Assembly (NCBI GenBank): GCA_012841165.1
Contig: DUVF01000006.1
Coordinates: forward strand, 1 to 36,379
Reading direction: 5' to 3'
Length of the DNA: 36,379 nt
Origin: Clostridiales bacterium
Lineage (GTDB): Bacteria; Bacillota; Clostridia; Peptostreptococcales; Anaerovoracaceae
Below are positions 4 through 28,487 of the stretch, piece by piece. The notes under the pieces were generated by a model, which saw only the letters and a program-made list of their open reading frames with translations, was not told the origin of the DNA and did no database searches. Positions within the stretch are counted from its first letter, which is position 1. The number at the start of each line of letters is the position of its first letter. Both the position numbers and the translations under genes were made by a program.

Positions 4-1494
4 GTTTGAGAGAGGTGTAGTTCTATAAGGTAGTCAAACTATCGTATCAACTTCATAACCCCTATCCGAGTTTGAGAGAGGTGTAGTTCTATAAGGTAGT
101 CAAACATAGGCGGGCGGGGTTGTATCCCTAATATGGTTTGAGAGAGGTGTAGTTCTATAAGGTAGTCAAACTTATAAGGCGATGAAAACTACCCTTGTTC
201 GTTTGAGAGAGGTGTAGTTCTATAAGGTAGTCAAACCCATGGTTGTTCTGGTGCCAGTCGAATCTGGTTTGAGAGAGGTGTAGTTCTATAAGGTAGTCAA
301 ACAATCACTATGCCTGATCCAACCTTTACCACGTTTGAGAGAGGTGTAGTTCTATAAGGTAGTCAAACGGTTCATTCGGTGACATGGCGGCAATTGTTGT
401 TTGAGAGAGGTGTAGTTCTATAAGGTAGTCAAACCAACTTTCTGGTTTTGACCCCAGCTTGATGGTTTGAGAGAGGTGTAGTTCTATAAGGTAGTCAAAC
501 CCATAACCAGCCGGAGTTTCGGAATCGTCAGTTTGAGAGAGGTGTAGTTCTATAAGGTAGTCAAACAAAAGTCATATATAAGTATGTATAGAGTGCGTTT
601 GAGAGAGGTGTAGTTCTATAAGGTAGTCAAACTAGACATAGAGTAATAAAACGACGGCTTATTGTTTGAGAGAGGTGTAGTTCTATAAGGTAGTCAAACC
701 GCTGAGTCTTCGTTAAGACTACGAACATAGTTTGAGAGAGGTGTAGTTCTATAAGGTAGTCAAACCCAACTGTGTTGACCGTTGCACCTGTAATGTGTTT
801 GAGAGAGGTGTAGTTCTATAAGGTAGTCAAACGACACTGTTATCGACGAGTATTCGCCGGAAGTTTGAGAGAGGTGTAGTTCTATAAGGTAGTCAAACCG
901 TAAACATGATCGGTTCGCTCCTGGCCGGGTTTGAGAGAGGTGTAGTTCTATAAGGTAGTCAAACCGGAGACACGAAGGGAGCCAAGGACGAATAGTTTGA
1001 GAGAGGTGTAGTTCTATAAGGTAGTCAAACAATGCCGCCGCGATACTCAACCTTAAACGCGTTTGAGAGAGGTGTAGTTCTATAAGGTAGTCAAACCACA
1101 CCAAAAACCAAGGGCCCGAACGGAGAGTTTGAGAGAGGTGTAGTTCTATAAGGTAGTCAAACAAGGACAGAATCATCCGCTGCATCCGGACCTCGTTTGA
1201 GAGAGGTGTAGTTCTATAAGGTAGTCAAACCGCATGCATAGATGTTTGCTGCTGTGTTCGGTTTGAGAGAGGTGTAGTTCTATAAGGTAGTCAAACTCCT
1301 TTGAGTGCGAATATTCGCTTTCCTCGGTTTGAGAGAGGTGTAGTTCTATAAGGTAGTCAAACGCCCGGCTCGATTACTGGCCACGCCTGCTGGTTTGAGA
1401 GAGGTGTAGTTCTATAAGGTAGTCAAACTAACATCTGGGATGAAGACGACCCGGACATGTTTGAGAGAGGTGTAGTTCTATAAGGTAGTCAAAC
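4..1494 (+). CRISPR. CRISPR array, type II-like repeats, 23 repeats and 22 complete spacers (left end cut off)
   Basis: A 36-bp direct repeat (begins GTTTGAGAGAGGTG, ends AAGGTAGTCAAAC) starts at 4, 70, 136, 201, 267, 333, 399, 465, 531, 597, 664, 730, 797, 863, 929, 995, 1061, 1127, 1195, 1261, 1327, 1393 and 1459. By eye all copies are identical, including the last. Spacers are mostly 30 nt (range 29-32) and all differ. The length, the GTTTGAGAG start and the short GTTTGA/TCAAAC terminal inverted repeat fit type II (Cas9) arrays. In those families the strand beginning GTTTGAG is the crRNA strand, so the leader and cas genes should lie left of the window. Bases 1-3 are the end of another spacer, so the array continues leftwards. 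No cas gene or convincing tracrRNA anti-repeat is present in the window. The subtype (II-A or II-C) cannot be settled here. Confidence 0.98.
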
Positions 1495-1801
1495 TTAACC
1501 AGTCTGACCGCACTGTTCATTAGAATCGCTGCAATCGTTATAATCAAGCGGAGGTTAAACCTATGTTACAGTTAAAATCCGCACGAATACGGGATTGTTT
1601 GTGCCGGAAAAGGACAGGCGATTCCGTCTTCTTTCGGGGCATAAGCTATGTAGAAATTAAACCTATGCCTTCCTTTTATTGATACTATACACAATTATGC
1701 GAAAAAGGGCAGCCAAATGGCTGCCCTTTTGATACCCCATATACCCCGAGTCATGCGTTTTTAAGAAAGCGTTTCAGGGCTTCATGCAAATGAAAGTTAT
1801 C
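1495..1801. other. Array trailer and intergenic region without a gene
   Basis: No supportable gene is seen between the last repeat and the stop of the dehydrogenase gene. The stretch holds an 11-bp direct repeat TTAAACCTATG at 1555-1565 and 1657-1667 (102 bp apart). Between the two copies lies a long imperfect hairpin, with arms around TTTGTGCC (from about 1599) and GGGGCATAAG (to about 1647) and an inner GAC-A-GG/CCGTC stem. A strong terminator follows at 1703-1730. The sequence after the last repeat shows no further repeat copy, not even a degenerate one. Confidence 0.6.
1703..1730. terminator. Bidirectional intrinsic terminator
   Basis: A perfect 12-bp stem, AAAAGGGCAGCC (1703-1714) paired with GGCTGCCCTTTT (1719-1730), surrounds an AAAT loop. 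It carries A/T tracts on both sides, so it can terminate the leftward dehydrogenase transcript and any rightward read-through from the CRISPR array. Confidence 0.9.
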
Positions 1802-6109: not shown

Positions 6110-8339
6110 AGTAAATATGAGTAGCCAGGTTATTATAGGCAGCGTAAAGGAAATGATTTTCCGGAATCCTGACAGCGGATACACAGTGGCCGAGATCTTA
6201 CCGGATGGAGAAAACGAAACCGTTACAGCGGTCGGCTATTTGCTTCAGGTGGAGTGTGGCCAGTCTGTCAGGCTGACAGGATCATGGAAACAGCATCCGG
6301 TTTATGGAAAGCAGTTTGCGGCCAGTGCCGCCGAGACACTCATGCCTCAAAGTGCCGCGGGCATTGAAGATTTTCTGGCGTCCGGCTTGCTCAAAGGCAT
6401 CGGCCGAAAAACAGCGGCGGCTCTGGTTGCCTACTTTGGCGATAAAACTCTTGAAGTCATAGAAACACAAGCCGAGCGGCTGACCGAAGTTGATGGCATC
6501 GGGCCGGTCAAGGCGGCGGCGATTAGCGAGGCTTTTCAGGCGCATAAAGAATTAGCAGCGGTGATTTTGTATTTCCAACAAAACGATATACCGTCTAATT
6601 ATGCCCTGAAGTTCTATCCTGCCTATGGCGATGAAACGATCGCCCGAATTGAGGAAAATCCCTATCGTCTGATTAAAGAAGTGCAGGGGGTAGGATTCCG
6701 CACGGCAGATCAGATCGCGTCTCGCTTGGGTATGGCAGCCGATTCACCTGAACGTCTGCGCAGTGCGGCTCGCTATCGTCTGTGGGCGTATGTCAACGAA
6801 GGACATGTCTTTGTGCCTGTTCGGGAACTATGTGAAGCCACAGCGCAGATGATCGAACAACCGTCTGAGGAAATCAGAGAGCAATTGGTTGAGCTGGCCT
6901 TTGCCGGCGAGATTCGGATCGAAAATCTGGAGAACCGGCCTGTCGTCTATCCGATGGTCTATTATATTGCCGAGCAGGTGGTCAGCGGCAAACTGGCCGA
7001 CTTGGCCGATGCGCCGCTTGATCCCATCCCTGGAGAACCGGACAGTTTGGTTGAGAGGGCGGCTTCGGATATGGCTCTGACTTTGTCCGAGGATCAACGC
7101 CTGGCTATCCGCACGGCTTTGCTGAACGGCGTGACAGTGATCACCGGCGGTCCCGGCACCGGAAAGACTACGATCATCAATGTGATAATGAAAATCCTCC
7201 AAGAAGCCAGGCTGGAAATAGCCATTTGCGCTCCGACCGGCCGGGCAGCCAAGCGGATCACCGAAACCTGGGGCTACGAAGCAAAGACCGTTCACCGCCT
7301 GCTGGAATACAGCTTTGCCGACTCCGATGAAACGATGTTCTTCGGCAGAAACCGCGATAATCCGCTGGAAGTGGATGCTGTGATCGTCGATGAGGCTTCC
7401 ATGATCGATATACTGTTGATGAAGGGCCTGCTTGAAGCGATACCGGCCGGCGCCCGGCTGATCATCATCGGTGATGCCGATCAGCTGCCTTCGGTCGGAC
7501 CGGGAAATGTTTTGCGCGATATTCTTGAGAGCGAATGGATACCGGCAGTCCATCTGAAAGAGATATTTCGTCAGGCAGGCGAGAGCCTGATTGTGGTGAA
7601 TGCCCACCGCATAAATCGCGGCGAGCATCCTGACTGCAATCAGCCGGATCGAGATTTTTTCCTGCTGCGTCGCCCCACTGAGCGCGACATGCAGTCCTCT
7701 ATCCTCGATCTCTGCCAGCGCCGGCTGCCGGCATACTATGTAGACATTGAGCCATTTCGGGACATTCAGGTCCTGACGCCGGTGCGCAAAGGCCCGATCG
7801 GTGTGCGTGAACTGAACCGTGAATTGCAGGCTTTGTTAAACCCGCCCAAGGCCGGTAAAAATGAGAGAAAAACGGGTGAGCGGATTTTCCGGGAAGGCGA
7901 CAAAGTGATGCAGATCCGCAACAATTACGAGATCGAATGGCGCAAGACAGATGATTTTTCCGAAGGGTGCGGTGTATTCAACGGTGATTTCGGAGTTGTT
8001 CATACGGTGGATAATGAGGGGGGCGAGTTGACAGTTTGCTTTGACGACAACCGCTTTGTCCGCTACGATTCGACTACTTTGGAAGAACTGGAACTCGCCT
8101 ATGCGATTACCGTACATAAAAGCCAGGGCAGCGAATTCCCGGTCGTGGTGATGCCTGTTTCCTGGTTTCCGCCGGTTCTGGCGACTCGCAATCTGCTCTA
8201 TACTGCCGTCACCAGAGCCAAGGAAGCGGTCGTGTTGGTCGGTTCGGAAGATCGCTTGCGCCAGATGGTCGACAACAACCAGACGACCAGGCGCTATTCG
8301 GGCCTGGCGACGCGCTTGAAACGCTTTTTAGAATGCTGA
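6084..8339 (+). CDS. recD2: RecD-like DNA helicase (RecD2/YrrC type)
   Basis: A 751-residue superfamily 1 helicase of the RecD2 type found in bacteria without RecBC, implicated in DNA repair and replication-fork processing. The N-terminal part (to about 330) contains a small OB-like region and helix-hairpin-helix repeats (LLKGIGRKTAAAL, LTEVDGIGPVKAAAI, VQGVGFRTADQIA). Walker A GGPGTGKTT lies near residue 355, Walker B VIVDEAS near 433, and the late SF1 motif AITVHKSQGSEF near the C-terminus. The GTG at 6084 has AAGGA eight bases upstream and would overlap yhaM by 26 nt. The ATG at 6117 (MSSQ...) is an alternative start with a poorer ribosome binding site. The last bases overlap comF, suggesting coupled translation. 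Confidence 0.92.
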   Translation: MIVNKRKNEVNMSSQVIIGSVKEMIFRNPDSGYTVAEILPDGENETVTAVGYLLQVECGQSVRLTGSWKQHPVYGKQFAASAAETLMPQSAAGIEDFLASGLLKGIGRKTAAALVAYFGDKTLEVIETQAERLTEVDGIGPVKAAAISEAFQAHKELAAVILYFQQNDIPSNYALKFYPAYGDETIARIEENPYRLIKEVQGVGFRTADQIASRLGMAADSPERLRSAARYRLWAYVNEGHVFVPVRELCEATAQMIEQPSEEIREQLVELAFAGEIRIENLENRPVVYPMVYYIAEQVVSGKLADLADAPLDPIPGEPDSLVERAASDMALTLSEDQRLAIRTALLNGVTVITGGPGTGKTTIINVIMKILQEARLEIAICAPTGRAAKRITETWGYEAKTVHRLLEYSFADSDETMFFGRNRDNPLEVDAVIVDEASMIDILLMKGLLEAIPAGARLIIIGDADQLPSVGPGNVLRDILESEWIPAVHLKEIFRQAGESLIVVNAHRINRGEHPDCNQPDRDFFLLRRPTERDMQSSILDLCQRRLPAYYVDIEPFRDIQVLTPVRKGPIGVRELNRELQALLNPPKAGKNERKTGERIFREGDKVMQIRNNYEIEWRKTDDFSEGCGVFNGDFGVVHTVDNEGGELTVCFDDNRFVRYDSTTLEELELAYAITVHKSQGSEFPVVVMPVSWFPPVLATRNLLYTAVTRAKEAVVLVGSEDRLRQMVDNNQTTRRYSGLATRLKRFLEC

Positions 8340-9082
8340 GGGAGTTGTTGGGCGAGCTGCTCGAATGGATATATCCTTCAGGCCTCTACTGCTTGCGTTG
8401 CAATAAGCCGATCGATCGTCGACAGCCTTATTCTTTGTGTCCGGACTGCGTTAAGCAGATCAATTGGGCCAACAGCGGAGTTTGTCCCCGGTGCGGGCGT
8501 CTGCTGGACAGATATGCAGGAAAAGAATTCTGTCATGATTGCGCGGCTGGAGAGAAACCTTTTTTGGCGGGCGCTGTGTGTACCGGTTACGGAAGGGTCG
8601 AACGGGAATGGCTGCATAGTTTCAAATACCGGAATCAAGCCTGGTTGAAGGAACCGCTTGGCCAGTTGTTGGCGGAACGAATCGCGGCAGAGAAATGGCC
8701 CCTTAATTGTGTCGTGCCGGTTCCTTTGCATCCGTCCAGGCAGCGCAGCCGCAGCTACAATCAGGCGGCCCTCTTGTCCGCCGTTGTTGCAAGGAGGCTG
8801 GAACTGCCGCATTTTCCGGATGCGTTGTTGCGCATCAAAAAAACCGAGGCGATGAGTCGTTTGTCGGCGGTCGAACGGCGAAGCTGCCTGACAGGAGCCT
8901 TTGGCATTAACCCTCTGCGGGGAACATGTTTACAGCATAAAGCGGTGCTGTTGATAGACGATATCTACACCACCGGATCGACGATGTCGGAATGCACGAA
9001 AGTATTGTTAGGATGTGGAGCGTCGGCGGTCTATGTTGCTGCCTTTGCCGCGGCTGCCGATATTCGGTCGGAAAGCATATAA
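8333..9082 (+). CDS. comF: ComF family phosphoribosyltransferase-like protein
   Basis: A 249-residue ComF protein. The N-terminal third is a zinc-ribbon region with CxxC pairs (CLRC, CPDC, CPRC, CHDC). The C-terminal part is a type I phosphoribosyltransferase fold with the PRPP-binding motif LLIDDIYTTGST near 204-215. ComF helps single-stranded DNA handling during natural transformation in competent bacteria. It overlaps the recD2 stop by 7 nt, forming a nucleic-acid-processing unit with yhaM and recD2. No other competence gene is in the window, so competence is not shown. Confidence 0.92.
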   Translation: MLRELLGELLEWIYPSGLYCLRCNKPIDRRQPYSLCPDCVKQINWANSGVCPRCGRLLDRYAGKEFCHDCAAGEKPFLAGAVCTGYGRVEREWLHSFKYRNQAWLKEPLGQLLAERIAAEKWPLNCVVPVPLHPSRQRSRSYNQAALLSAVVARRLELPHFPDALLRIKKTEAMSRLSAVERRSCLTGAFGINPLRGTCLQHKAVLLIDDIYTTGSTMSECTKVLLGCGASAVYVAAFAAAADIRSESI

Positions 9083-9507
9083 AAGTTGAGAAATCAACTG
9101 GGTAAACAAAACATGTGCCGGGTATATTAAACTAAAGATTTTCAAGAAGGAGCCGGACAAATTATCGATAATTATACAAGCAGTAGATAATAGAAACAGC
9201 AGGCGATGGCGGCGAATATACAAAAACAGGAAGCATATTTATACAGAAACTTGAGGGCGAAAATGTTTCCACAAAAGAAACCATGGATTTTCAATTATGC
9301 ACAGAGTTATTCACATTATCAACAGGCGCCAAAGAGCAATAAGAGGAGACGAAAGTTACGGCCTTTTGACTATGTTGAGAATACTCTTTGCGAACAAGCT
9401 TGATGTATTTGGGCTGTATATATTTATTACTTTTTTGACGTGTACTGGCACAACTTTTGAATAACAGAGTTTGGCCAAGCGCACAAAGCATGAAGGAGGG
9501 CCTGAAA
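9083..9507. other. Non-coding gap between comF and hpf
   Basis: A 425-bp gap without a convincing gene. It holds a small GNRA-loop hairpin (AGTTGA-GAAA-TCAACT, 9084-9099), a 14-bp perfect AT-rich palindrome AATTATCGATAATT (9160-9173), a weak DnaA-box-like GTTTCCACA (about 9265-9273), and the DnaA-box cluster at 9295-9324. A TTGACG at about 9436 could be part of the hpf promoter, but no matching -10 stands out. Confidence 0.6.
9295..9324 (+). promoter_or_regulatory. Cluster of DnaA boxes
   Basis: Two perfect matches to TTATNCACA (TTATGCACA at 9295-9303 and TTATTCACA at 9307-9315) are followed directly by a near match TTATCAACA (9316-9324). All are in the same orientation, with starts 12 and 9 bp apart. 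DnaA binds such 9-mers at oriC and at some regulatory sites. No dnaA or dnaN gene is nearby in the window. Confidence 0.65.
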
Positions 9508-10035
9508 ATGAAGGTTATAATCAGCAGTAAAAACATCAACCCAAGCGACCGCCTCAAAGAAACGATCGAGAAAAAACTGGAAAAACTGAGCAAATACTTT
9601 TCGGAGGACATCGTTGCCAACGTTACATTAGTCGGCGGGCAGAAAGGACGGCAGAAGATCGAAGCGACGATCAATGCCAAGGGTACTATTTTTCGAGCTG
9701 AAGAAGATGCAACAGATATATACACCGGTATAGACCGTATAATCGATAAATTGTCTTCGCAGATGTCCCGCTTTAAGACAAAGCTGCAGAGAAAGCACAA
9801 AGACCATCGCGATATAGACTTCTCAATGGTACCTGAAGTTGAAGAAGTGCCGAAGACCGAAGTCATACGGAAAAAAACCTTCGATATGATCCCGATGTCA
9901 CAGGATGAAGCCATTATGCAAATGGAGCTTTTGAGCCATAATTTCTTTGTTTTCCTAAACATGGAAACAGATTCGGTGGCTGTTGTCTACAAACGCAAAG
10001 ACGGCGGTTATGGTCTATTGGAACCCAGCTATTGA
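9508..10035 (+). CDS. hpf: Ribosome hibernation promoting factor, long form
   Basis: A 175-residue long-form HPF: an N-terminal S30AE domain (about 1-100, starting MKVIISSKNINPSD) that binds the decoding region of the 30S subunit, a linker, and a C-terminal dimerisation domain (about 115-175, KTFDMIPMSQDEAIMQMELL...). Long HPF pairs two 70S ribosomes into inactive 100S dimers in stationary phase. The ATG at 9508 is preceded by GAAGGAGG; an in-frame ATG at 9457 lacks such a site. It lies downstream of the DnaA-box gap and 75 bp before cdaA, possibly in the same transcript. Confidence 0.94.
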   Translation: MKVIISSKNINPSDRLKETIEKKLEKLSKYFSEDIVANVTLVGGQKGRQKIEATINAKGTIFRAEEDATDIYTGIDRIIDKLSSQMSRFKTKLQRKHKDHRDIDFSMVPEVEEVPKTEVIRKKTFDMIPMSQDEAIMQMELLSHNFFVFLNMETDSVAVVYKRKDGGYGLLEPSY

Positions 10036-10110
10036 ATAGTAGGCATTTTTTCGTTAGAATCAATATGTTAAGAGTGCACAGGCTAATGCAGACAGGAGCG
10101 TATATGAGCA

Positions 10111-10965
10111 ATGACTGATTTTTTTGCCAGTCTGGCGTCCGGGTTCGGGATATCCGACGTCTTTGATGTGGCAATCGTTGCGTTTGTCATATATAAGATA
10201 TTATGTTTTATTCGGGAGACACGGGCGGAACAGTTGGTCAAAGGCCTGCTATTTTTAGTCGCCGCTACTTTTCTATCCGATGTTTTGAACATGCATACTC
10301 TGAATTGGCTTTTCGAACGCGCTCTGACGCTCGGCGTCATTGCCCTGATCATCGTTTTCCAACCGGAGCTTCGCCGGGGCCTTGAGTATATCGGCCGCAG
10401 CAAGTTTGTCCGTCCAAGGTTTGTTGAAATTAAGAAAGAGAGTGCCAAGCAGGCGGTGGCCACTATCGTCAGGGCGACGGATTATTTTTCCGCCAATCGG
10501 ATCGGCGCACTGATAGTGATGGAAAGGGAAACCGCCCTGACTGATATTGTTGAAACCGGCACGCACATCGATTCGGAGATTTCGCTTGAATTGATCAAGA
10601 CCATTTTTTATGCCGGTGCTCCGTTGCACGATGGTGCGGCGATCATTCGCGGTGACCGGGTGATTGCCGCCGGCTGTGTGTTGCCGCTGACGACCAATCG
10701 CGGTTTGAGCCGTGATTTAGGGACAAGACACCGGGCCGGCATCGGGATAACTGAGCATTCCGACGCAATCGTCATTATTGTATCGGAAGAGACCGGCATT
10801 ATATCTATTGCCGTCGATGGCGAACTGTCGCGTTTTCTGGAGATCAAGACCGTCGAGAAGACCCTCCTCAATCTTTATTTGAACCGTTTCCCGGATGAGA
10901 CGTCAAAGCCGTTCCTGGCGCGTTTTTTCGGGAAGGCGCGCAAACAGGAGGGTGATGATGACTGA
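10111..10965 (+). CDS. cdaA: Diadenylate cyclase CdaA (c-di-AMP synthase)
   Basis: A 284-residue membrane diadenylate cyclase that joins two ATP into c-di-AMP. Three N-terminal membrane helices (about 17-33, 45-62, 67-85) precede the DAC domain. The two signature motifs are intact: DGA in LHDGAAII (about 173-175) and RHR in GTRHRAGIG (about 209-211). c-di-AMP controls potassium and osmolyte uptake and cell-wall homeostasis in Bacillota. The following genes cdaR and glmM complete the conserved cdaA-cdaR-glmM operon, whose products are known to interact. Its stop overlaps the start of cdaR. Confidence 0.97.
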   Translation: MTDFFASLASGFGISDVFDVAIVAFVIYKILCFIRETRAEQLVKGLLFLVAATFLSDVLNMHTLNWLFERALTLGVIALIIVFQPELRRGLEYIGRSKFVRPRFVEIKKESAKQAVATIVRATDYFSANRIGALIVMERETALTDIVETGTHIDSEISLELIKTIFYAGAPLHDGAAIIRGDRVIAAGCVLPLTTNRGLSRDLGTRHRAGIGITEHSDAIVIIVSEETGIISIAVDGELSRFLEIKTVEKTLLNLYLNRFPDETSKPFLARFFGKARKQEGDDD

Positions 10966-25691: not shown

Positions 25692-26297
25692 TCAGTCTGT
25701 GAGCAAGGAGGTGTTCTTATGTCCTAAGCTGTCGCTGAGGGACAGTCCTAGTTGGCGGGCCTGTTCGCCCCACGCTGAGGCAGTGATATCTTCGCGATTG
25801 ACAACGCCGGAAACATAAATCTGTCCGGCGTCCTTCCATTTAAGGTAGCGCAGCAGAGCCTGGTAGTGGAGCTTGAGCGTGTTAAAGGGCCAATCTCTGG
25901 GGATGCCGCAGGTCGCCAGCATAACAGCTTGTTTGGAAGGCATTTCGCGAAGTTGAGGGCTGACCATATAGAAGCGGTCGAGCACTTTTTTCAACTGCGA
26001 GGTCATATCAAAAAAGTACAGAGGGGTTACGAAAGCAACCAGATCCGCTTCCAGCAATAATCGTTGGATCGGCGCATAATCGTCTTTTATGATGCAGACA
26101 CCGGAGACTTGCCGGCAATGCCCGCAGCCGCGACAGCCTTCCAGCTACATAAAGGCAGTATCGAAGCGAGTGATATCATGTCCGGCTGCGGCCGCACCGC
26201 TTTGAAAGTGGTCGGCCAGCCAGGCGGAGGTCCCTTCCCGGCGTGGGCTGCCCGTCAGGAGCAGGATATTCATTTTGGCGTTTAGAGCTTGTTCCAT
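25692..26297 (-). pseudogene. NADPH-dependent FMN reductase / flavodoxin-fold gene with an in-frame amber codon
   Basis: Read from the ATG at 26297 (AAAGGA eight bases upstream) the frame encodes a flavodoxin-like protein: MNILLLTGSPRREGTSAWLA (flavin phosphate loop), then a TAG at codon 51 (26145-26147), then without any frame change LEGCRGCGHCR, CIIKDDYAPIQ, VAFVTPLYFFDMTSQLKKVLDRFY and on to a TGA at 25692. The total would be 201 residues plus the amber. The remainder looks intact, with the CxxCxxC-type cluster typical of this family. It is either a recent pseudogene, a read-through gene or a sequencing error. It starts 29 nt behind the radical SAM-PadR gene on the same strand, so it was probably the third gene of that operon. 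Confidence 0.85.
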
Positions 26298-26326: not shown

Positions 26327-27661
26327 TCATACATCAGGTGATATTTCCAACTGTCCGATCAGGCATGTCAATGTAGAAATATATTCTTTCAATGTTTCTT
26401 TCCAGTCGTCAAGACAGTGAAGGCCTGCATTGGTAATGGCATATGCCGTTCCGTCATAATGTACCAGGCCGCGCTGTCTCATTATCTTTAAGAAACGGTA
26501 TGTGGCAGCCATGTCCGGTATAGCCTGCTGATATGTCGCGTATTCTCTCATTTGTTTCTGAACGGCATAACCGGTCTGGTCTCCGCGGCTTAAAATATCC
26601 AAAATAATGGGCTGCATAAATTTTTCCAAATTCCCGCCCTGGCAGGCGCATTTCTGCCGCTTAGTATTCTGAGCCGGGGGTGCTGAAATATGATAACCAG
26701 CCTTTTCAAGAAGCTTACGGGCATGCTGCATATCTGTACCAGCCCAGTCTTTTTCTGAAAATCCAGCGTCTCTCGGTATGGCGCCGGACTCTACGACCAC
26801 AACATTTGCGCCGCTGTTTACGGCTTCTTGTGATGCGGGATGGGCACAGATATCTCTCACGCTGTTGCCGCCTGAAAGACGAAGCACAGCAATAACATGA
26901 GCCAGATAAGCTTCATCTACCATAGAAGTATCATCGCCAAGGGGAGTTCCTTTGACCGGAAACCGCGCCATGGCGCCGCAGATCTTCGCGCCGCAGGATA
27001 CCGCGTTCAGAAAGCAGTCTGCGATCTCCTGTGCGCTATGCTCCGGGCCAAGCGGTTCCACAAGGCTGATGAGCGACATTTGTGTGCTGGTGACGCTGTT
27101 CATCGTGTAGATTCGCTTTTCGGGTGAAAAGGGCGTGTCCGCCCCTTCTCTGAGCCTGAGCGCGTGATAGACGCCGTATACATTCGCAGCGGCAACGCGG
27201 TTTGCGGTAACGAAGTCGAGTTCGCCCGTGTTTAATATGATGCCGTAATTTCCGGGGATCTCTTCGCGGATGCGGGGAATCTGCTTTAAAAGAGTATCAA
27301 GACTGTAAAACTCCGTGGTTCGCAGCACGATATATGCTGCTCCTTCGGCAACATAGCCGCGTACACGATTAAAGATTTCCTCTTCGGTAACCTGGCGGCT
27401 CTGCTCAATCAGTCCCCACTTCTCACCAAAAGAACAGAATTTGCAATTCATAGCGCAAGGCGCATAATCCATACCGATGGCGCACCACAGATACCCTTTA
27501 TCCAAAGCAATAAGAGAGGCTGCGCGCCGCGCGGCCTCTCTGAGTTTTTGATCTTCCGGGCTACCGACCGGGATTTCCAAAAGGGCAATGGTCTCATTTC
27601 GCGATAACACCTCGCCCTTAAGACATTTTTCTTCACAAAGCCGGATAAGTTTTTCAGTCAT
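26327..27661 (-). CDS. Radical SAM protein fused to a PadR-like winged-helix domain
   Basis: A 444-residue fusion. Residues about 40-325 form a radical SAM domain related to the BioB/HydE/PylB group: the [4Fe-4S] ligands C69, C73 and C76 (CAMNCKFC) lie after a hydrophobic strand, followed by EGAAYIVLRTTE, NTGELDF, RFPVKGTPLGDD and GGNSVRDICAHP. A short link holds a CxC (about 336-338). Residues about 345-440 match the PadR type of winged helix (FMQPIILDILSRGDQTGYAVQKQM ..., TYRFLKIMRQRGLVHYDGTAYAITNAG). The start codon overlaps the end of the C_GCAxxG gene by 8 nt. The reaction is unknown. I infer that the DNA-binding tail acts on the palindrome at 28126-28148. Confidence 0.8.
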   Translation of the reverse strand: MTEKLIRLCEEKCLKGEVLSRNETIALLEIPVGSPEDQKLREAARRAASLIALDKGYLWCAIGMDYAPCAMNCKFCSFGEKWGLIEQSRQVTEEEIFNRVRGYVAEGAAYIVLRTTEFYSLDTLLKQIPRIREEIPGNYGIILNTGELDFVTANRVAAANVYGVYHALRLREGADTPFSPEKRIYTMNSVTSTQMSLISLVEPLGPEHSAQEIADCFLNAVSCGAKICGAMARFPVKGTPLGDDTSMVDEAYLAHVIAVLRLSGGNSVRDICAHPASQEAVNSGANVVVVESGAIPRDAGFSEKDWAGTDMQHARKLLEKAGYHISAPPAQNTKRQKCACQGGNLEKFMQPIILDILSRGDQTGYAVQKQMREYATYQQAIPDMAATYRFLKIMRQRGLVHYDGTAYAITNAGLHCLDDWKETLKEYISTLTCLIGQLEISPDV

Positions 27662-28103
27662 TTAATATATCCTCTAAGATTATGCATGAATCTATGACCG
27701 CTTTGCAGCATACCTCTTCGAATAAATTTTCCTGCATGACTTTTTCCCTTTCAGCGGGCTTGCTCAGATCATAACCGAGGATCTCTTTGCAGATGCAGCT
27801 TCCGTATTTTTCTGTAAAAGCGGCTTCAAAGCGATCCTGTACGGCGCGCATGTGGTTTTTCGCCTCTAGATTACACACATCGCCCTGACCATATTTTAAT
27901 CCTATTACCATCAGCGCACCAGTGACGCAGCCACAGGTCTCGCCGTGCCGCATACCGCCACCAAATGGCGCGGCTATCTTGAGAGCTGTCTGTCTATCCA
28001 AACCGAGATATTCAGAAAATTCGCCGAACACTGCCTGAGAACAGTCTATGCCTTTATTAAAATCCTGAAGAGCCTTTTCTTCTGTGAGAGATGTTTTTAT
28101 CAT
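27654..28103 (-). CDS. C_GCAxxG_C_C family redox protein
   Basis: A 149-residue cytoplasmic protein with the family's cysteine pattern: C21 in GIDCSQAVFGEF, the pair C57 and C59 in GETCGCVTGALMVIG, then CIC near 97 and a CC in the C-terminal helix. The family is believed to be redox- or metal-cofactor-related, but no reaction is established. The ATG at 28103 is preceded by AAAGGAG; an in-frame ATG at 28196 lies upstream of the predicted promoter and can be excluded. It is the first gene of the unit with the radical SAM-PadR gene. Confidence 0.88.
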   Translation of the reverse strand: MIKTSLTEEKALQDFNKGIDCSQAVFGEFSEYLGLDRQTALKIAAPFGGGMRHGETCGCVTGALMVIGLKYGQGDVCNLEAKNHMRAVQDRFEAAFTEKYGSCICKEILGYDLSKPAEREKVMQENLFEEVCCKAVIDSCIILEDILND

Positions 28104-28125
28104 GGGATCGGTACTCCTTTGAATA

Positions 28126-28148
28126 TATATTAGATTAAATCTAATATA
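28126..28148. promoter_or_regulatory. 23-bp palindromic operator over the -10 and start point
   Basis: The perfect inverted repeat has 11-bp arms, TATATTAGATT and AATCTAATATA, around one central A. It covers the -10 (28143-28148) and the expected start (about 28136) of the minus-strand promoter, the classical place for a repressor site. The PadR-like domain encoded in the same operon is the obvious candidate to bind it. Confidence 0.75.
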
Positions 28149-28171
28149 ATATTTTGGAATTGTTTCGTCAA
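28143..28171 (-). promoter_or_regulatory. Promoter of the C_GCAxxG / radical SAM-PadR operon
   Basis: On the minus strand: -35 TTGACG (28166-28171), 17-bp spacer, -10 TATATT (28143-28148). The leader of about 33 nt carries AAAGGAG. Confidence 0.82.
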
Positions 28172-28321: not shown

Positions 28322-28397
28322 TGGTGGACTCGAAGGGATTCGAACCCTCGGCCTCCGCGTTGCGAACGCGGCGCTCTCCCAGCTGAGCCACGAGCCC
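28322..28397 (-). tRNA. tRNA-Ala (anticodon CGC)
   Basis: A complete 76-nt cloverleaf including encoded CCA. Acceptor GGGCTCG/CGAGTCC contains the G3-U70 pair that is the alanine identity element. The anticodon stem is CCGCG/CGCGG with loop TTCGCAA (anticodon CGC, reads GCG). The T arm GAGGG-TTCGAAT-CCCTT is good. It sits 12 nt behind the tRNA-Val locus and shares its promoter. Confidence 0.95.
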
Positions 28398-28409
28398 AAA
28401 CAAAAAAAT

Positions 28410-28487
28410 TGGTGGGGACAGCGGGACTCGAACCTGCGACCTCATGCTTGTGACGCATGCGCTCTAACCAACTGAGACTATGCCCCC
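28410..28487 (-). tRNA. tRNA-Val (anticodon CAC), degenerate in the D and T stems
   Basis: The acceptor GGGGGCA/TGTCCCC and an encoded CCA are good, and the anticodon stem CATGC/GCATG with loop GTCACAA gives CAC (valine, GUG). Three deviations stand out: one extra T in the 5' half of the D stem (TAGTCTCAG where TAGCTCAG is usual), an A-C mismatch in the T stem (GCAGG against CCCGC), and G rather than a pyrimidine at position 32. It may be a decaying gene. CAC is dispensable when a UAC-anticodon tRNA-Val exists. Confidence 0.75.

Follow-up and report, generated by a model that had tools for sequence, protein, structure and literature searches.

The radical SAM–PadR operon and its surroundings

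The window, that is, the whole stretch of 36,379 nucleotides analysed here, carries a two-gene operon on the minus strand. The operon comprises a gene for a putative redox protein and a gene in which a radical SAM domain is joined to a PadR-type winged helix, with a promoter-like site and a palindrome in front:

26327..27661, minus strand: radical SAM-PadR fusion protein, 444 aa (ORF, profile and fold matches)
26330..26635, minus strand: PadR winged helix and C-terminal dimer-type helix, residues 343-444 (profile, AlphaFold2, Foldseek)
26642..26650, minus strand: N-terminal CxC motif of the PadR part, C338 and C340, invariant in 12 relatives, fused and separate
26678..27661, minus strand: radical SAM domain, residues 1-328, BioB/HydE/PylB fold (profile and fold matches)
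27434..27457, minus strand: CxxxCxxC cluster motif, residues 69-76 (C69, C73, C76), the three Cys invariant in 30 relatives
27654..28103, minus strand: first operon gene, encoding a C_GCAxxG_C_C putative redox protein of 149 aa (PF09719, E 4e-28)
28126..28148, no strand: predicted operator, a perfect palindrome with a conserved 19-bp core (28128-28146) reading TATTAGATTTAATCTAATA on the minus strand
28143..28171, minus strand: promoter-like site, -35 TTGACG, 17-nt spacer, -10 TATATT (28143-28148); a match to consensus alone, 0.9 expected by chance

The two genes overlap by 8 nt (27654-27661), and the palindrome, with 11-bp arms around a 1-nt centre, is the longest in the window; on Markov shuffling, arms of this length arose once in 20 shuffles of the entire window and never in 2000 of the local region. 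The -10 TATATT lies inside the palindrome, which is where a repressor site would be expected. The initial annotation, made from the letters alone, had described both the overlap and a 23-bp perfect palindrome across the -10, and both hold at these coordinates.

Several neighbouring features were recorded alongside the operon. Directly downstream of the fusion gene is an NADPH-FMN reductase-like gene (25692-26297, minus strand) with one in-frame TAG, which may reflect a pseudogene, a sequencing error or recoding. Just upstream of the operon promoter are tRNA genes for Ala and Val (28322-28487, minus strand), tRNA genes being a common kind of insertion site for transferred genes. At the other end of the window (399-1498) is a CRISPR array with 17 copies of a 36-nt repeat, GTTTGAGAGAGGTGTAGTTCTATAAGGTAGTCAAAC, spaced 66-68 nt apart, with spacers of ~30 nt.

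Searched on its own, the fusion protein matched Pfam families weakly (Radical_SAM 9e-5, PadR 3e-3, HTH_45 2e-3), and its PadR part as a single sequence fell under the Pfam cut-off. Family profiles were far more telling: the profile of the radical SAM part retrieved the solved structures of biotin synthase (7e-17), HydE (3e-14) and PylB (9e-10), and that of the PadR part the PadR structures 3elk (3.5e-15) and 2esh (1e-14). AlphaFold2 modelled the whole protein with a mean pLDDT of 91.4; a joint alignment that included PadR-only rows, in which those rows were misaligned, was not used for folding. In the model, residues 343-440 form a winged helix followed by a long C-terminal helix, and the joint (residues 334-345), which holds the invariant CxC, has a pLDDT < 50. 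Foldseek matched the radical SAM model to HydE, BioB and PylB, and the PadR part to TA0346, LmrR and CdPadR_0991. By family profile, AlphaFold2 and Foldseek alike, the C-terminal part belongs to the PadR transcription factor family, with its winged helix and C-terminal dimer helix, and the CxxxCxxC on a barrel fold places the N-terminal part in the radical SAM superfamily, BioB/HydE/PylB type. The cluster motif at residues 69-76 and a PadR-type winged helix from about residue 345, both read from the sequence in the initial annotation, were thereby corroborated, the latter also by the structure prediction proposed for that part.

The scores of the fusion lie far below the curated equivalog cut-offs for PylB (29 bits versus 348) and BioB (23 versus 225), and HydE is absent from its NCBIfam match list. 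We therefore treat the radical SAM part as a separate, unnamed family rather than filing it as BioB, HydE or PylB proper. It shares with these enzymes the fold and the CxxxCxxC motif, and they are its best profile and Foldseek matches, but it has invariant residues of its own and a C-terminal DNA-binding domain. The PadR part resembles the short, single-helix type of PadR protein (LmrR, TA0346/3elk, CdPadR_0991), with a winged helix and one long C-terminal helix, from which it differs by an invariant CxC-x-G-x-x-L ahead of the winged helix and by being joined to an enzyme. Winged helices joined to radical SAM enzymes also occur as RRE domains, and the C-terminal part might accordingly be a peptide- or protein-binding module, like the PqqD-like RRE of radical SAM peptide maturases, instead of a DNA binder. 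We regard this as highly improbable, given that profiles and fold comparison alike lead to PadR regulators with a long dimer helix, that free-standing versions of the domain exist and go with a palindromic site, and that the enzyme matches BioB, HydE and PylB, which act on small molecules, rather than peptide maturases.

Fused and separate relatives

A search for the same domain order in other genomes, as the initial annotation had suggested, recovered the fusion in three genomes in all: that of the window, a Synergistota metagenome-assembled genome (MAG; locus L001, 444 aa, 84% identical to the window protein) and a Clostridia genome (L012, 452 aa). These three are the only fused examples found, two of them being close relatives, and they span two phyla. 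In most relatives PadR is encoded by a gene separate from the radical SAM gene, often directly upstream, in keeping with the earlier remark that PadR proteins are usually separate; what that remark lacked is that the separate gene is often an adjacent operon partner. At seven loci (L010, L049, L051, L052, L054, L057 and L060) the PadR gene directly precedes the radical SAM gene, often overlapping it, and L062 and L110 likewise have a separate PadR gene before the radical SAM gene. The pair is usually followed by genes for an SsuABC-like binding protein, permease and ATPase. The domain order of the fusion, with PadR last, is the reverse of the gene order in these operons, where PadR comes first.

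In the radical SAM tree, the window and L001 proteins group with the unfused L002, L003 and L004, and L012 is placed elsewhere. A single clade of the three fusions was rejected by this tree (AU test, p 4e-30) and was not rejected by the PadR tree, which rests on a short alignment (p 0.43), so that either two fusions occurred or one fusion was followed by fission or loss. Comparison of the window with L001 gave a dN/dS of 0.26 over the radical SAM part and of 0.14 over linker and PadR part together, indicating that selection maintains both. Recurrence in three genomes and two phyla, with purifying selection on both parts, led us to reject an assembly error or a chance fusion. Since the domains are often operon partners and the fusion recurs, the architecture is better seen as the joining of established partners than as an artefact; judged from the sequences, it most likely arose when a radical SAM gene was joined with the gene for PadR, in relatives a separate regulator encoded in the same operon.

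The fused operon of L001 (4735-6335) has 85% DNA identity with the window over 1431 bp. Its fusion gene has a G+C of 0.526 within a contig of ~0.6, a difference which suggests lateral transfer of the operon between phyla; alternatively, the operon came to lie in a Synergistota MAG through misbinning. The C_GCAxxG gene of this operon is decayed, lacking the start codon and the middle portion, with operator and fusion intact, and a C_GCAxxG gene is absent beside most PadR-radical SAM operons, for which reasons we rejected an obligatory C_GCAxxG partner. The idea that fused homologues always sit behind a C_GCAxxG gene and a similar palindrome thus holds for the palindrome and fails for an intact C_GCAxxG gene.

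A conserved operator and a second candidate target

The palindrome is found beyond the window. The same 19-bp inverted repeat, with the consensus TATTAGAC-n3-GTCTAATA, precedes the operons of L001, L012, L003 and L002; in L001 it reads TACTAGACTTAGTCTAGTA, with both half-sites altered symmetrically. Operons from genomes with and without the CxC-motif PadR subfamily were then scored by one uniform test. At P <= 0.02, a site was present in 14 of the 16 operons from genomes with the subfamily versus none of 14 from genomes without it (Fisher 8e-7), and after removal of the five loci in which the motif was first sighted, at P <= 0.05, in 9 of 11 versus 1 of 14 (2.4e-4), with the proviso that several of the sites at separate PadR genes overlap homologous start codons and hence are not independent. 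Two operons, L052 and L057, missed the threshold in this test (P 0.06). In the genomes of L002 and L003, the PadR gene is set apart from the radical SAM operon and has a copy of the operator to itself (sites in G675 and G676); the PadR genes of G368 and G923, also set apart, have no clear site of their own. Another site, G675:C103, was taken as a chance match, being next to the ends of two unrelated genes (L082).

Where PadR and radical SAM are separate genes of an operon, most operons have sites 51 and/or 34 nt ahead of the CxC codon, on or close to the start codon of PadR and 17 bp apart if both are present, and at several separate PadR genes (L115-L122) the operator is doubled at 17-bp spacing and overlaps the start codon, so that coding and operator sequence constrain each other. 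Overall, related operons have the palindrome conserved in front of them, and it accompanies PadR whether fused or not, which bears out the expectation that it would recur there. By co-occurrence, then, the operator goes with the CxC-motif PadR subfamily. None of the fused genomes has a close member of that subfamily besides the fused domain, yet all keep the operator, which makes the fused PadR the natural candidate binder of the site. Palindromes near promoters can serve any dimeric regulator, and the operator could in principle belong to an unrelated one, with the fused PadR a passenger or bound elsewhere; this we judge quite improbable, because the site goes along with the PadR subfamily from genome to genome, also where a PadR gene outside the radical SAM operon has a site to itself, and because the PadR part is under purifying selection.

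The 1.3-Mb genome of the window (G000) was scanned with TATTAGAN5TCTAATA, allowing <= 2 mismatches, with the reversed pattern as a control. Five places matched, one of them the window site. The reversed pattern gave 14 chance matches at 2 mismatches, so that the number of sites is not enriched and only the position of a tandem pair is striking: a second radical SAM gene, 33% identical and the only other member of the fusion's radical SAM family found in this genome, is preceded at 44 bp by two sites 17 bp apart (G000:C68:36705-36740). From the reversed control we estimate that ~0.001 such placements would be expected per 120-bp stretch. The sites on C17 and C39 were taken as chance matches. 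The tandem sites before the second radical SAM gene make it probable that the fusion also acts in trans, beyond its own operon. Divergent from that gene is an ABC exporter, and upstream of the exporter, at ~10370-10440 of L066 (G000:C68), is another pair of inverted repeats (TTAG...CTAA type), perhaps the sites of a different regulator.

Proposed function and related systems

Computation shows two domains in one protein, their pairing in relatives, a conserved operator that co-occurs with the PadR subfamily and selection on both parts. On these grounds we consider it likely that the fusion works both as a radical SAM enzyme and as an autorepressor with a small regulon; it would bind DNA, repress and catalyse. 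The original suggestion that a radical SAM domain and control of the operon encoding it are united in one polypeptide is thus supported computationally, by domains that are elsewhere separate but often adjacent, by the PadR fold and by the conserved palindrome. In the proposed mechanism, the PadR domain, probably as a dimer via its last helix, would bind the operator over the -10 of the C_GCAxxG/fusion promoter and block transcription until a signal releases the dimer, and would also bind the two tandem sites before the second radical SAM gene in the same genome. Autoregulated PadR proteins likewise have a palindrome at their own promoter. Being fused may fix the ratio of regulator to enzyme, or allow DNA binding to respond to the state of the enzyme.

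To judge from the invariant CxC, the signal may be a metal, an iron-sulfur cluster or a thiol; a small molecule in an LmrR-type pocket is equally possible. As the CxC is common to fused and separate PadR proteins, sensing of whatever kind probably predates the fusion. More tentatively, and on balance doubtfully, the radical SAM enzyme may be its own transcription factor, reading cluster integrity, SAM or product by direct coupling to the Cys-bearing PadR, in which case enzyme supply would follow cofactor status without a separate sensor. The radical SAM part might instead be a sensor only, with bound SAM or an oxygen-sensitive cluster gating PadR and no turnover of a small molecule. A sensor of this kind, working through an iron-sulfur cluster or SAM, would fit with the retained CxxxCxxC and with an operator at the promoter of the protein itself. 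Yet the domain closely resembles unfused relatives, of which many belong to transporter operons, has kept every one of the invariant residues and is under purifying selection, and separate PadR proteins with the same CxC do without such a domain, which renders a pure sensor improbable.

Bifunctional enzyme-repressors are exemplified by PutA and BirA (PMC6978683). The bifunctional reading of the fusion resembles them in that one polypeptide would hold an enzyme and a DNA-binding domain controlling its own operon or pathway, as fits the architecture and the operator here, and differs in enzyme class (radical SAM) and DNA-binding domain (PadR). A literature search found no published example of a radical SAM and PadR domain pair, and searches for DUF5714 and for PadR with an iron-sulfur cluster returned nothing relevant. 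Enzyme-repressors are few, and the fusion would bring a radical SAM protein into this group, one for which the operator is defined and both a second candidate target promoter and unfused relatives are at hand, making the coupling of radical SAM or iron-sulfur status to transcription directly testable.

Also among the closest counterparts are the unnamed PadR-radical SAM-SsuABC-like transporter operons found here, which share the two protein families and the operator. They have two genes with PadR first, whereas the fusion is one gene with PadR last, and the window operon, unlike them, has a C_GCAxxG gene and no transporter; an SsuABC-like binding protein was not found in the window's genome. 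The unnamed radical SAM family, the Cys-motif PadR subfamily and the SsuABC-like transporter form one conserved, probably regulated module. Genes in the neighbourhood across loci (the SsuABC-like transporter, DUF5714, a CobW-type GTPase, an ArsR-type HTH and a DVU_1551-like cluster) point to metal or redox metabolism; they settle nothing as to the substrate, and naming it from them was rejected.

Beside the L012 fusion (7121-10803) lies a DVU_1551-1556-like cluster, near a molybdopterin aldehyde oxidoreductase, with genes for a TrsS-like radical SAM protein, a DVU_1556 methyltransferase, a DVU_1555 C_GCAxxG protein and a DVU_1553 CoA ligase.
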